This document shows positions 17,380 to 44,044 of a stretch of DNA of 64,000 bases, in pieces; position 1 is the stretch's first letter, and each line of letters starts with the position of its first letter. Source of the DNA: Carnobacteriaceae bacterium zg-84. Its GTDB lineage: Bacteria; Bacillota; Bacilli; Lactobacillales; Aerococcaceae. The notes under the pieces were generated by a model. It was not told the DNA's origin. It did no database searches and worked only from the letters and a program-made list of their open reading frames with translations. A program made the translations under genes and the position numbers. The stretch lies in NCBI GenBank assembly GCA_013874835.1, contig CP059430.1, positions 1,630,864 to 1,694,863 on the forward strand, in the 5' to 3' direction.

Positions 17380-17419
17380 TCATTTCACCTCCATTAGATT
17401 TGGGGTAGCACTTTTTAAA

Positions 17420-17532
17420 TAAAAAAGCCCTACATCACCCAAGACATAGAGAACCACAGAAATTTATATTAAATATCTATCTTCCTCGGTAGGATATTAA
17501 GGATTTCTCCACCCACTGTCTTTGGTAGCTTT
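17420..17532 (-). promoter_or_regulatory. L10 (rplJL) autoregulatory leader
   Basis: On the minus strand the leader reads AAAGACAGTGGGTGGA, then CCTACCGAGG, and later GTCTTGGGTGATGTAGGGCT before TTTTTT. These are the conserved blocks of the Firmicute L10 leader, in which L10-L12 binding favours an attenuator. It lies between the mapped promoter and rplJ. Confidence 0.9.
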
Positions 17533-17543
17533 TCACTTTCTTT

Positions 17544-38248: not shown

Positions 38249-40189
38249 TTATTCAACTGGACGACTAAATTGGCTAATTTCATGTTGTACTTTTGCAATA
38301 AAGTCATCAACACTCATGGTCACTGTATCTTTTGAACCATAGCGACGAACAGTGACGGAATGATTTTGCGCTTCTTGATCTCCCACTACTAATTGATATG
38401 GGATTTTTTGTGTTTGAGAAGCACGAATTTTATAACCCATTTTCTCATAGCGTAAATCTAGGTCAATACGCATACCAATACGTTGTAATTGTTCTGTTAA
38501 TTGACGTGCATATTCAGCATGTAAATCAAAATTAACTGGAATAACTGTTGCTTGAACAGGAGCTAACCATGTAGGGAATGCACCTTTATATTCTTCAATT
38601 AAGTAGGCAACAAAGCGTTCCATTGTCGATACAACCCCACGGTGAATAACGACTGGACGATGTGTATTTTCTCCATCTTCACCAACATATGTTAAATCAA
38701 AACGCTCAGGTAATAAGAAGTCCAACTGAATAGTAGACATTGTTTCTTCTAAGCCCATAGCTGTTTTGAACTGAACGTCTAATTTTGGTCCATAGAAGGC
38801 AGCTTCACCAGTTGCTTCAAAATATGTTAATCCTAATTCATCCATTGCTTCTTTTAACATACTTTCTGCTTTGTTCCACATAGCATCATCATCAAAGTAT
38901 TTTTCTTTATCTTCTGGATCACGATAACTTAGACGGAAACGATAGTCTTTAATGTTAAAATCTTCATATACAGCACGAATTAACTCTAATGTACGTTTAA
39001 ATTCATCTTTAATTTGGTCTGGACGTACGAACACATGTGCATCGTTTAATGTCATCTCACGTACACGTTGTAAACCAGATAAAGCACCACTTTTCTCATA
39101 ACGGTGCATCATACCCAATTCAGCAATACGAATTGGTAATTCACGGTAACTATGAATATCGTTTTTATAGACCATCATGTGATGCGGACAGTTCATCGGA
39201 CGCAATACTAACATCTCTCCATCGCCCATGTCCATTGGAGGAAACATATCATCTTTATAATGTGCCCAGTGACCTGATGTTTTATATAGCTCAACATCAG
39301 CCATAACTGGTGTATACACATGTTGGTATCCTAAGCTAATTTCTTTATCCACAATATAACGCTCAACAGCACGACGGATAGTCGCACCTTTTGGTAACCA
39401 GAACGGTAGACCTGAACCTACTTTTTGAGACACCATAAACAAGTCTAATTCTTTTCCTAATTTACGGTGATCACGCTCTTTAGCTTCCTCACGCATTTTC
39501 AAAAACTCGGCCAAATCTTTTTTGTCAAAAAAGGCTGTTCCATAAACACGTTGCATCATCTTGTTATCAGAATTACCTCTCCAATAAGCACCCGCAAGTG
39601 ACAATAATTTAAAGACTTGAATGCGACCAGTTGATGGCACATGAATACCACGACATAAATCAATGAAGTTTTCTTGTTGATAGACAGTGATTGTTTCATT
39701 GTCTGGTAATGCGTTAATAAGTTCTACTTTATAAGGGTCTTTGGCAAAAATCGTTAAAGCTTCCTCTTTTGTCACAACACGACGCTCGATAGGGAAATTA
39801 GCTTTCACAATATTCATCATCTCAGCTTCAACTTTTGGCAATTCATCTTCAGATAATTGCACTTCCATATCTGTGTCATAGTAAAATCCTGTTTCAATGG
39901 CAGGACCTACACCAAAATGGATATTTGGGTATAGACGTGTTAAGGCATGTGCTAATAAATGTGCTGTTGAATGACGCAAAATTCCTAATGCATCTTCATG
40001 CTCAGGTGTTACCAATTCAATACGACCGTCACTTTCTAAAGGACGATTATAATCAATCAATTCTCCGTTATATTTAGCAGCCAATATTTTTTTAGCTAAA
40101 CCAGAACTAATTTCTTTGGCAATATTATGAGGTGTTGTGCCTTGCTCGTACTCACGAACAGCACCGTCTGGAAATGTTACTTTAATCAT
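38249..40189 (-). CDS. thrS: Threonyl-tRNA synthetase
   Basis: At 646 aa it is full length with TGS domain ([18 protein letters not shown]), the editing domain ([16 protein letters not shown]), the class II catalytic core with motif 2 ([13 protein letters not shown]) and zinc ligand region ([13 protein letters not shown]), motif 3 and the anticodon-binding domain at the end ([15 protein letters not shown]). It is controlled by a T-box leader upstream. It is a single-gene transcript with its own terminator. Confidence 0.98.
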
Positions 40190-40224: not shown

Positions 40225-40440
40225 TCCCATTTCTAAGCCGGGGCTTAGAAATGGGACGCTATGATACGTGGTTCCACCCATTTTATTCGTCAACAGACGA
40301 ACACTCATTTGTTGTAACGCAACTAGCGGTTATTTTTCAAAATAACTTTTCAAAAGTGGTAATTCATTAGTTACATAAATCGTTTCACCTAGCCGATTCT
40401 CTCTAAAATGCTCACTAATCAATCGTGTCTTTATCAATAA
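40225..40440 (-). promoter_or_regulatory. T-box leader of thrS
   Basis: On the minus strand the conserved T-box GGGTGGAACCACG lies at 40267-40279. It is followed by a perfect 15-bp terminator hairpin (40225-40256) and TTTTTT. An ACC codon at 40358-40360 inside GAATTACCAC is the likely threonine specifier. Uncharged tRNA-Thr should open the terminator. Confidence 0.93.
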
Positions 40441-40459
40441 ATGTTAATATTATGTTGTT

Positions 40460-40506: not shown

Positions 40507-42096
40507 TTATATTTTTTGATACACAATGTCACCATTAAGAATGGTTTTAAGAACTTGTACATTTAAAATATCTTGTGGATTTGATAGATGCAATATATTA
40601 TCACTTAATACGGCTAAATCGGCTCGCTTACCGACGCAAATCGTACCTACATCATCTCGACTAATTGCCGCAGCTGCTCCACTTGTATGTGCTACTAATG
40701 CATCAGCAATACTCATTTTTTGATGACTCATTAAAGCCTCTCCCTCTGGTAAACCGTCTGTCGTTTTACGGGCAACAGCATAGTAAAGACTTTCCAATGG
40801 TGTCACATCAACAACCACCGGCACATCTGTTCCAAATCCTAATGTTGCCCCAACATCAAGAAAGGTCTGAAATGGGAACATATCCTTTGCTCTGATTGGA
40901 CCGACTTCTTCATCGAGCGTGTCATATCCTACAAGCAAATGGCTTGGTTGAACAGATAATACTAAATTTGGCTGTGTCACCAATGGTAAATCGGCTAAGT
41001 CCATGACTTCTAGATGTTCAACCGTATTATTGCCTTTTAAAAGTGGATATTTTTCTTGTGCTTCTTTTAAATATGTTAATGTGAGCTGAATGGCTTTATC
41101 GCCAATGGCGTGAATACGGATTGGGAAACCCTTTTGATTTGCAAGATGAATTAGTCGACGCATCTTTTCAATAGGAATTAAGGGAATACCCACATCATGA
41201 GCATGGTAGGGATTGGCATAAGGTTCTTTTAATAACGCTGTATGTGAACTTGTCACACCGTCAAAAAATTGTTTCACACCTGACATTTGGAGCATAGGCG
41301 ATGTATACTTAGAAGACAGTGTATCCAAGTGCTGTGTTTCCTCACGCATTGCTGGAAAGAAATTGATGCGTACAGTTGCTTGTTGATGTGCATATAAATG
41401 TGGATATACTAAATCATCTGGGCTTTCACCAGTTAAAGCAACATCTCCCACAGCCGTTATTCCCATTTGATTTAATTGTTTCATATACATCAAACAATCC
41501 TCTGTTGCTGTTTCGTGAAATATTTCCAACACTTTTGCTAAATAATAAATCGCAATCGCTTCTAAAAACACACCTGTTAACACATTGTTCTCATAAAAAC
41601 GTTCCCCTGTAATCTCTTTCGGTAATGTTTCTGGTGTGATATTTAAAGCATTCATACCAGCTGAGTTTAGCCAAATCGTATGCGCATCTCCTGAAATCAA
41701 TAAAGTCGGAACATCGTGTGTTGTTGCATCTAATTTCCATCTTGTTGGGTAAACTTGTTGTCCAAAATCACTCGCATACCACCCAATACCAATACGCCAC
41801 CCATTTTGAATAGGTAATGTTTCTGCTTGTTTAGCAACTTCTTCGGGAGAACGACCAGATACAACTGTTAAGCGTTTGTTATAAACCAAACTTGCCAAGT
41901 AAAAATGAACATGTGCATCGATAAAAGACGGAATAATCATTTGGCTACCACAATCAATAATATCGCACCCTCTATCAGTTGGGATAGTTTGTTGATAAAC
42001 AGCTGTAATATAACCATCTTTTATTTCAATACCACCAGAAAATGTTTCTTTCTTTTCGGTATCAAATATCGCTTTGCTTTTTAAAATATAATGCAT
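40507..42096 (-). CDS. YtcJ-type metal-dependent amidohydrolase
   Basis: 529 aa, amidohydrolase family 3. The metal motif IPSFIDAHVHFYLA (HxH, about residue 61) is near the N-terminus. Later metal ligands are IRIHAIGDKAIQ and TVEHLEVMD, and the terminal Asp is in LGFGTDVPVV. C-terminal IADALVAHTSGAAA and KRADLAVLSDNI are typical. The substrate is unknown. It overlaps the PotD-like gene by one base, so the two are cotranscribed, suggesting a shared amine- or amide-containing substrate. Confidence 0.88.
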   Translation of the reverse strand: MHYILKSKAIFDTEKKETFSGGIEIKDGYITAVYQQTIPTDRGCDIIDCGSQMIIPSFIDAHVHFYLASLVYNKRLTVVSGRSPEEVAKQAETLPIQNGWRIGIGWYASDFGQQVYPTRWKLDATTHDVPTLLISGDAHTIWLNSAGMNALNITPETLPKEITGERFYENNVLTGVFLEAIAIYYLAKVLEIFHETATEDCLMYMKQLNQMGITAVGDVALTGESPDDLVYPHLYAHQQATVRINFFPAMREETQHLDTLSSKYTSPMLQMSGVKQFFDGVTSSHTALLKEPYANPYHAHDVGIPLIPIEKMRRLIHLANQKGFPIRIHAIGDKAIQLTLTYLKEAQEKYPLLKGNNTVEHLEVMDLADLPLVTQPNLVLSVQPSHLLVGYDTLDEEVGPIRAKDMFPFQTFLDVGATLGFGTDVPVVVDVTPLESLYYAVARKTTDGLPEGEALMSHQKMSIADALVAHTSGAAAAISRDDVGTICVGKRADLAVLSDNILHLSNPQDILNVQVLKTILNGDIVYQKI

Positions 42097-43187
42097 TATG
42101 ATAACTCCATTTTAAAGTTTAAAAATTGTTCATTATAAAATTCTATCCAATGCTTACCTAAATGTTCATAATGTTCCAATTCATTTAATACATCATCTGA
42201 CGGATAGAACATCGTATCGCTTGTCATTTCCTCAGGTAATAATTCTCTAGCCGCTTGACTTGGTGTTGTATACCCAACATACTCAGCATTTTTAGCTGCA
42301 TGCTCAGGCTCTAACATAAAGTTAATAAACGCATAAGCACCCTCAATATTTTTTGCTGTATGCGGAATAGCAAAATTATCTGTCCAAACAGCACTACCAT
42401 CTTTTGGAATAATGTACGTAATGGCTGGATTAGATGCAATAACAGCAGCTGCATCTCCTGAGTAACCAATTCCAATCGCCGCTTCACCCGCAACTAACAA
42501 AGGTTTTATCTCATCTGTTAAAACCGCTCGTATATTCGGACTTAATGCAATCAATCGTTGTGTCGCTTCTTTTATTTTCTCTTCATCTTGCGTATTCAAT
42601 GAATATCCCATACTTTGTAAAGTCAACCCTAACATTTCATGGAAATTGTCCAACACTAAAATATTATTTTTATATTCTGAATCCCATAAATCTTTCCAAG
42701 TCGTAATTTTTTCAGCATCGACCATTTCTGTATTGACCATAATACCAATCGTTCCCCAAAAATATGGGATTGTGTATTGATTATCTCTATCAAAATTTTG
42801 ATTCATCAAGGCAGGAGAAAGTGTTTCTAACCCGATAATTTTAGACTTATCAAGTGGTTTTAATAAGTTTTCTTCTAATAGTTTTGGGACACGTGACTCA
42901 CTTGGAAAAATAAGATCATACGGTGTACCACCTTGTTTTAATTTAGCTTCCATTGCATCATTAGAATCGAACGTTTCATAAACAACGGAATATCCTGTTT
43001 TTTCCTCAAATTCTTTTATTAACTCAGGGTCAATATAATCGCCCCAGTTAAAAATATACAGCGGTTTTTGTGCATCAACTTCTACACCAACAGAAGATGC
43101 ACGCTCTTGCTCTAAAGCGAATTTCATAAAAAAAAGAATAGACACAGCAGCTAGAATACTACCAAAGAATAATCCTAATTTTTTCAT
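42096..43187 (-). CDS. potD: PotD-like polyamine-binding protein
   Basis: 363 aa. The family start LYIFNWGDYIDPELIKEFEEKTG follows an N-terminal membrane segment (residues 5-24). YETFDSNDAMEAKLKQGG, FWGTIGIMVNTE and EGAYAFINFMLEPEHAAKNAE are conserved in PotD/PotF. In Gram-positives the protein is normally a lipoprotein, but no cysteine occurs near the signal segment, so it seems to be held by the uncleaved helix or released. potABC are absent from the window. It leads a two-gene unit with the amidohydrolase. Confidence 0.88.
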   Translation of the reverse strand: MKKLGLFFGSILAAVSILFFMKFALEQERASSVGVEVDAQKPLYIFNWGDYIDPELIKEFEEKTGYSVVYETFDSNDAMEAKLKQGGTPYDLIFPSESRVPKLLEENLLKPLDKSKIIGLETLSPALMNQNFDRDNQYTIPYFWGTIGIMVNTEMVDAEKITTWKDLWDSEYKNNILVLDNFHEMLGLTLQSMGYSLNTQDEEKIKEATQRLIALSPNIRAVLTDEIKPLLVAGEAAIGIGYSGDAAAVIASNPAITYIIPKDGSAVWTDNFAIPHTAKNIEGAYAFINFMLEPEHAAKNAEYVGYTTPSQAARELLPEEMTSDTMFYPSDDVLNELEHYEHLGKHWIEFYNEQFLNFKMELS

Positions 43188-43285
43188 ACTAACCCTCTTT
43201 CCTATACTATTTTAACGTTCTAAGTATACCTATTTTTAAAAAAATATGCTATCAAAATATAAAGAAATTTTATTTCTTTATACAA

Positions 43286-43367
43286 AATAAAAAACCTAGT
43301 AGACGAAAAAGTAATAGCCACACTACTCATCTTACTAGGAATTGCTAGAGAAATAAGATTATTTCTT
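43286..43367 (-). ncRNA. Candidate small RNA
   Basis: A transcript of about 80 nt is suggested by a promoter (43374-43402) and a terminator-like end: CCTAGTA (43295-43301) pairs with TACTAGG (43333-43339), followed on the minus strand by TTTTTTATTTTG. Near its 5' end AAGAAATAA and TTATTTCT form a second hairpin. No ORF or known RNA family was recognised. Confidence 0.4.
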
Positions 43368-43373
43368 AAAATT

Positions 43374-43402
43374 ATTCTACAATACAACATAAATATAAAC
43401 AA
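43374..43402 (-). promoter_or_regulatory. Promoter of the candidate small RNA (or of potD)
   Basis: Minus-strand TTGTTT (43397-43402), a 17-bp spacer, and TAGAAT (43374-43379). Without the terminator downstream it could also serve potD. It lies in the 383-bp gene-free gap 43188-43570; apart from this, the candidate RNA and the tadA terminator nothing else was found in that gap. Confidence 0.5.
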
Positions 43403-43535
43403 GCAAAAAGAATAAAATGGTAGACAATTCTTTTAAACAAAAAATTAGAAGTAGTAGTATTTTTACTAGATGTACTTTGTACCGAATAGTACGCACTTCA
43501 ATAAAACGTATCGGGAGAAAAAAATACTTTACCAA

Positions 43536-43571
43536 AAAATTGTGTTGGGACAAAAACTCCAACACAATTTT
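43536..43571 (-). terminator. Terminator of tadA (GTGTTGG-type stem)
   Basis: AAAATTGTGTTGG pairs with CCAACACAATTTT (13 bp), followed on the minus strand by TTGG; the loop is T-rich. The stem touches the tadA stop codon and matches the one at 5860-5893. Confidence 0.85.
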
Positions 43572-44044
43572 TATATATTTATCTGTTTTTTACGTTCTCG
43601 TAGTTCTTTAAAAAACCGCTGTAAAAGAGCCTTACACTCTTCTTCTAGTATGCCACTTTCCACCTCGGCTTGATGATTAAACCGACTATCTTGAACTAAA
43701 TTCATAAAAGTACCGCATGTTCCTGCTTTTGGATCAAAAGCACCAAAGGTTACTTTTTTTAGTCTTGATAAAATAATGGCACCACTGCACATTGGACACG
43801 GTTCTAAAGTAACAAATAACTCACACTCTTCTAAACGCCAATTCCCTAAGTGCGCATTTGCTTGACGTATCGCTTTTATTTCTGCATGAAGTGTCGCATC
43901 TTGTTCCTTTTCTCGTAAGTTGTATCCTCTACCAATGACCTCACCTTTATACACAACAACAGCACCGATAGGTACTTCATCTAAATCATACGCTTTTTGA
44001 GCTTCTTTCAAGGCTTCTCTCATAAAATATTCTTTTTCGGTCAT
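43571..44044 (-). CDS. tadA: tRNA-specific adenosine-34 deaminase
   Basis: It converts A34 to inosine in tRNA-Arg(ACG). The zinc site is complete: LHAEIKAIRQA (His and catalytic Glu) and LEPCPMCSGAI (two Cys). At 157 aa it has normal length. The start codon shares bases with the stop of the YitT gene, indicating translational coupling. Confidence 0.95.
   Translation of the reverse strand: MTEKEYFMREALKEAQKAYDLDEVPIGAVVVYKGEVIGRGYNLREKEQDATLHAEIKAIRQANAHLGNWRLEECELFVTLEPCPMCSGAIILSRLKKVTFGAFDPKAGTCGTFMNLVQDSRFNHQAEVESGILEEECKALLQRFFKELRERKKQINI

Follow-up and report, generated by a model that had tools for sequence, protein, structure and literature searches.

Results

A cassette between tadA and potD

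What is a short promoter-terminator cassette doing between tadA and potD? The window analysed here is a stretch of 64,000 nucleotides from Carnobacteriaceae bacterium zg-84. A first-pass annotation of it placed in this intergenic region a TTGTTT-17-TAGAAT promoter, a CCTAGTA terminator hairpin about 80 nt later and a second hairpin near the 5' end. It held that no ORF fits, and proposed either a small RNA or an attenuator in the potD leader. The promoter-like site followed by the terminator hairpin is found in the sequence of the minus strand, and so is the second hairpin (Table 1).

Table 1. Features of the cassette and its surroundings (positions in the window)
Feature	Position	Strand	Details
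Candidate promoter TTGTTT-17-TAGAAT	43374..43402	-	TTGTTT 43402-43397, 17 nt, TAGAAT 43379-43374
Putative antisense-RNA terminator hairpin	43289..43339	-	CCTAGTA 43339-43333 / TACTAGG 43301-43295, U-tract 43294-43289
5' hairpin of the putative RNA	43349..43366	-	arms 43366-43360/43355-43349; also in G001
Segment matching same-genus genome G001	43288..43379	-	77%, 92 nt
Open frame homologous to phrog_4761, probable relic of small ORF 1	43263..43415	+	stop to stop, TAA 43413-43415
potD, downstream neighbour of the cassette	42096..43187	-	NCBIfam PotD model 273 bits, below the cut-off of 582
tadA, flanking the cassette opposite potD	43571-44044		

The predicted 91-nt RNA folds at -20.9 kcal/mol (z = -3.15), and none of 200 shuffled sequences folds as well. 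A simple terminator scan, which asks for at least seven perfect pairs and then a U-rich tail, gives 28 terminators on both strands of the window, the one in the cassette included, where 10 Markov sequences give 1.8 on average; a stricter scanner with a loop limit of 8 does not report the cassette hairpin. The promoter-like site scores 7.8, and an equally good site is present in 62% of 200 Markov sequences of intergenic composition. Taken alone, the window promoter is no better than chance, and a consensus promoter scanner run on the window does not report TTGTTT-17-TAGAAT. Upstream, between tadA and the cassette, lies a strong terminator hairpin (43535-43572), about 36 nt of which recur elsewhere in the genome at 89%; it is possibly bidirectional, since it is T-rich on both sides.

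A probable relic of a small phage-type gene

In a second genome of the same genus (G001), the intergenic region has a single match (E = 8e-14), which spans the cassette from its -10 to its U-tract. On the opposite strand of the G001 match there is an ORF that has AGGAG and ATG; it diverges from a repressor whose domains are S24-peptidase and helix-turn-helix. Beyond this repressor come three proteins named by eye from their translations, as KilA-N-like, tyrosine integrase and transposase. The G001 protein matches PHROG 4761 with an E-value of 4.2e-6. This library entry is a 44-residue family of unknown function. Over the 30 codons shared by the window and G001, the differences at codon positions 1/2/3 number 8/2/11 and 9 of 16 codon changes are synonymous, a pattern that suggests a protein-coding past. 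The G001 match was also considered as a conserved stand-alone sRNA gene, and this candidate was dropped because the differences sort by codon position. The promoter-like site reads TTGTTT-17-TAAAAT in G001 and TTGTTT-17-TAGAAT in the window, in each case 30 nt ahead of the stem, and G001 has a second promoter-like site, TTGTAA-17-TATAAT. Downstream of tadA, both G001 and a further genome (G002) have other sequence, and neither offers a clean empty site.

The plus strand of the window does hold a fitting frame, contrary to the earlier reading. A profile of eight relatives, built without the window copy, matches the frame 43263-43415 with an E-value of 1.6e-9 and zero internal stops, and the related proteins are of phage type; the next-best match of this profile in the genome has an E-value of 0.155. 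The match of the frame to PHROG 4761 itself is weak (E = 0.0075, a 37-amino-acid piece). The frame listing shows neither a start codon (ATG, GTG or TTG) nor a ribosome-binding site, so the window copy lacks the translatable toxin ORF of a type I toxin-antitoxin system. The body of the ORF is retained, as are the antisense stem and a weak promoter; gone are the start codon, the ribosome-binding site and the fold-back, distal promoter and convincing second ORF that are described below for its relatives. Most likely the window copy is the relic of a prophage module, and an RNA of about 80 nt, if one is made from it, would possibly be an orphan antisense RNA. Elsewhere in the genome (G000:C1:1603149-1604852), a run of short repeats with KLVNKPI.EHKR-like units in translation gives weak chance matches to the profile.

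Distribution and gene context of the family

Two intact copies of the small ORF (ORF 1) match PHROG 4761 with E-values of 3.3e-24 (a Streptococcus member) and 6e-12. A tblastn search for ORF 1 returned 19 phage records, all from Streptococcus. A scan of viral contigs gave 30 loci, and a second viral scan gave 14, all on contigs from the first. By profile search, 14 of 395 genomes match in the order of the window (three weakly), 5 of 76 in its family (one weakly) and, for the small ORF 1, 21 of 295 sampled Streptococcaceae genomes (one weakly). The class-wide sample yielded 2 of 398 genomes, both belonging to the same order and one of them being the window's own; no ORF 1 match was found in plasmid records. 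With the window copy, the collection amounts to 40 distinct DNA versions, most of which come from Streptococcus prophages. In intact relatives ORF 1 is approximately 41-56 amino acids long and of moderate hydrophobicity only. Neither ORF 1 nor six versions of the ORF that follows it (ORF 2) matched any Pfam or NCBIfam model above cut-off, known type I toxin families included; one ORF 2 matched MgtR at 21.5 bits, under the cut-off of 35, and this match was set aside.

Of 13 phage records whose annotation was read, 12 have a divergent upstream repressor, which in some of them is separated from ORF 1 by one small ORF. The exception is Streptococcus phage Javan215 (L190), whose copy follows the lysin gene and has no annotated repressor adjoining it. 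In that record the copy is an unannotated small ORF (1504-1632) near the record end. More broadly, a divergent ORF of 120 amino acids or more lies within 1.5 kb upstream of every non-window copy except L224 and L190 (37 of 39); judged by eye, the divergent ORFs of L219 and L183 are not repressors.

Repressors that lie beside closely similar small ORFs (L205, L213, L214, L138, L177, L179 and others) have very different N-terminal parts: the immunity region is a mosaic. The middle of ORF 1 occurs in a few versions (ADNDLAIPIII, KPEELGTVLIV and ATKDTATVILV, in L205, L138, L174 and their relatives, S. suis prophages too). This variable middle sits between nearly constant flanks, is also the top of the antisense hairpin, and may set specificity.

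An antisense terminator written into the codons of ORF 1

Does the hairpin exceed what the protein dictates? From 15 clusters formed at 90% identity we took one representative each, folded its antisense strand from the K-S-L to the L-G-L codons and compared it with random synonymous codons. With phage codon usage, 14 of the 15 clusters stand at 2/300 or better and L219 at 9/300; with the codon usage of the family itself, the same number stand at 10/300 or better and L219 at 30/300. The conserved stem is missing from the L219 cluster. The mean antisense fold is -20.9 kcal/mol, compared to -9.7 kcal/mol for the null (family usage; standard deviation 0.94, lowest of 300 sets -12.1). The window copy stands out at 2/300 on its antisense strand (z = -3.45), but not on its sense strand (z = -1.06). 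Of the consensus pairs, 3 of 8 are changed on both sides in the terminator alignment and 7 of 18 in a longer alignment, which takes in a second hairpin just past the putative antisense start. These comparisons show that the predicted antisense terminator hairpin has been selected beyond coding needs.

The sense strand is structured as well (mean -16.5 versus -7.6), as any sequence complementary to a hairpin has to be. In L224 and L190 its fold is slightly the better of the two, and in L165 the two strands are about equal. The G-U pairs separate the two strands: the antisense folds contain 27 and the sense folds 4, and the window has 3, all of them in its antisense fold. This bias shows that the antisense strand is the one favoured for the predicted hairpin. 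The 5' hairpin was tried as a shared family element and rejected, as the family has no common hairpin there and the window stands at 49/300; across the family the 5' region is modestly more structured than the null (mean -5.1 versus -3.4, standard deviation 0.55).

Promoter-like site, fold-back and a second small ORF

Type I toxin-antitoxin systems combine a small, usually hydrophobic peptide, toxic when expressed, with an antisense RNA that pairs with its mRNA and relieves the toxicity, and an mRNA structure that hides the start of translation is frequent among them, though not universal. Are comparable elements present in the intact relatives? TTGnnT-17-TAnA(C/A)T, which has an extended -10, ranks first among the antisense promoter-like sites in 16 of the 22 copies listed. 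It lies mostly 37-40 nt past the ORF 1 stop, with a variant in L183, and is not top-ranked in the window, G001, L181, L182 and L219. An antisense RNA from this site would be an estimated 150 nt long.

An inverted copy of the ORF 1 start region lies just past the stop, and the variants of this pair change on both sides. The mRNA can therefore pair with itself, e.g., GGCAAAUGAUGG with CCAUCAUUUGCC. Compared with shuffled tails, the fold-back stands at 2/200 or better in 22 of 29 copies (window and G001 among the 29), which gives these copies a predicted start-hiding mRNA structure like that of a type I system; these counts are not independent, because many of the copies are closely related. The fold-back is weaker in L229, L183 and L187 (5, 8 and 9/200), and in L182, L190, G001 and the window it fails the same comparison. 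Mean pairing is -24.0 kcal/mol for cognate and -19.0 kcal/mol for non-cognate combinations. The predicted accessibility of the start region falls with the tail in 26 of 28 copies, a modest change in the mean from 0.48 to 0.36. Taken together, the folds show predicted fold-back complementarity in most copies tested.

Directly after the fold-back element, 37 of the 39 non-window copies have ORF 2, which encodes 23-42 amino acids; the peptide has a single hydrophobic segment and, in most cases, a basic tail. Its best 15-residue hydropathy is 1.7-3.2 in these copies, as expected of the small hydrophobic peptide of a type I system, ORF 2 having been chosen as the most hydrophobic candidate at each copy. 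A convincing ORF 2 is absent from L219 and G001. Because the -10 shares sequence with the fold-back tail and the -35 with the ORF 2 start, the conservation of promoter, fold-back and ORF 2 is not independent.

Discussion

We think it rather probable that the cassette remains from a small prophage module whose intact relatives are type I toxin-antitoxin-like, with an antisense RNA opposite ORF 1. In the intact relatives one strand encodes ORF 1, usually divergent from a CI-type repressor, and then ORF 2. The antisense RNA would start at the promoter-like site; with the terminator embedded in the ORF 1 codons, this leftward RNA would traverse ORF 1 and end at that point. In lysogenic cells the early promoter would be closed by the repressor, and any leaky mRNA would fold back on its own start codon, limiting translation. 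The antisense RNA would pair through ORF 1 and silence the mRNA, so that the peptides are kept off. Once the phage is induced or lost, mRNA would exceed the antisense RNA in number or persistence, allowing the peptides to be made. It is tempting to go further and to regard the phrog_4761 loci as an undescribed family of type I-like switches in the immunity regions of Lactobacillales prophages, combining tandem small ORFs, a start-hiding mRNA and a codon-embedded antisense terminator, of which the species of the window retains the antisense half only, as an orphan RNA. We hold this wider proposal tentatively and consider it more doubtful than the remnant reading. Our confidence in both is tempered by the few copies in which the sense strand folds equally well and by the modest size of the accessibility change.

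Several other explanations deserve weight. A polyamine-responsive attenuator or riboswitch would suit a cassette that lies upstream of potD on the same strand, with a second hairpin ahead of its terminator. However, the element is present in G001, whose genome has no PotD match, and a phrog_4761-type element is missing by profile match from all 80 fetched potD loci. Rfam searches at the gathering cut-off and with E-values up to 10 gave no family for the cassette, weak matches being set aside, and we found no family-wide hairpin that would replace the 5' hairpin an attenuator needs. In the relatives, moreover, the element sits within a small phage ORF that usually has a divergent repressor nearby. 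On these grounds the attenuator is not supported; we regard it as highly improbable and judge potD to be unrelated to the cassette. What endures of the original alternatives is a small-RNA-type terminator cassette, by virtue of its conservation. It is just as improbable that the hairpin is a by-product of the protein codons, meaningless as RNA. Its stem does lie in conserved codons (K-S-L, L-G-L), so part of the conservation comes from the protein, but the synonymous-codon null is beaten in all clusters except L219 and the wobble pairs prefer the antisense strand.

The leftward hairpin might instead be only a terminator that shields the repressor gene from early-region transcription, with no discrete antisense regulator and with the window as a dead relic. 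In most copies it points towards the divergent repressor, and the antisense RNA is so far putative. Against this speak the Javan215 copy, which keeps the hairpin after a lysin gene with no annotated repressor beside it, and the fold-back, as an insulator needs neither a fold-back nor a promoter-like site; we consider this explanation unlikely, although clearly less so than the two above. Between them in probability, and quite improbable in our view, is a window copy that is still alive, its antisense RNA being made and kept, e.g., as an orphan antitoxin against incoming prophages with an intact gene. Its antisense stem and U-tract are intact, its few G-U pairs are all on the antisense side and its promoter-like site is placed as in G001. 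However, that promoter does not exceed chance, and with the window copy known from a single genome, recent decay explains these features equally well. The remnant of a type I-like prophage module is the reading we prefer.

How does such a module compare with known systems? ORF 1 belongs to PHROG 4761, a library entry that describes the protein only, without the antisense terminator, the fold-back or ORF 2. P22 sar and lambda OOP are antisense RNAs of phage immunity regions, and the phrog_4761 loci would share with them, likened by description only, an antisense RNA in a lysogeny control region. As outlined in PMC6733600, hok/Sok and aapA/IsoA consist of a small ORF and an antisense RNA from the opposite strand, and long-distance pairing between the 5' and 3' ends of the mRNA hides the start. 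The small ORF, the putative antisense RNA and the start-hiding 5'-3' pairing are alike in our loci; unlike those systems, the phrog_4761 loci have the predicted antisense terminator in the codons of the ORF and two tandem small ORFs beside a phage repressor. In yonT-yoyJ/SR6 of prophage SPbeta, two small ORFs on one mRNA face one antisense RNA (PMC5848175). The prophage location, the two small ORFs and the single (here putative) antisense RNA are similar, a comparison of descriptions rather than of sequences, whereas SR6 overlaps the 3' end of yonT and the phrog_4761 antisense RNA would cover ORF 1, with its terminator near the ORF 1 start. Antisense transcription throughout pneumococcal phage SpSL1 is reported in PMC6755750; SpSL1 is not among the tblastn phage records with ORF 1. 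Our literature search, covering titles and abstract openings with most subscription journals outside its scope, found no paper that names phrog_4761 or describes the locus.

A supposed sRNA near potD thus becomes the probable relic of a prophage module, which can be tested in its intact relatives. Within approximately 200 bases these relatives seem to stack three overlapping layers: a protein, an antisense terminator and a start-codon fold-back. If the peptides are toxic, a type I system would lie beside the lysogeny switch of streptococcal prophages; if they are not, a phage early gene would still hold an antisense element under strong constraint.

A few other features of the window were noted. 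On the minus strand, potD and an amidohydrolase-like ORF (together 40507-43187) meet at 42096, with no permease or ATPase genes adjoining; a second potD-like gene is present in the genome (G000:C1:1255301-1256314). A T-box leader (40249-40446, minus strand) lies upstream of a threonyl-tRNA synthetase-like ORF (38249-40189, gene name by eye), and a ribosomal protein L10 leader is found at 17412-17543, also on the minus strand.
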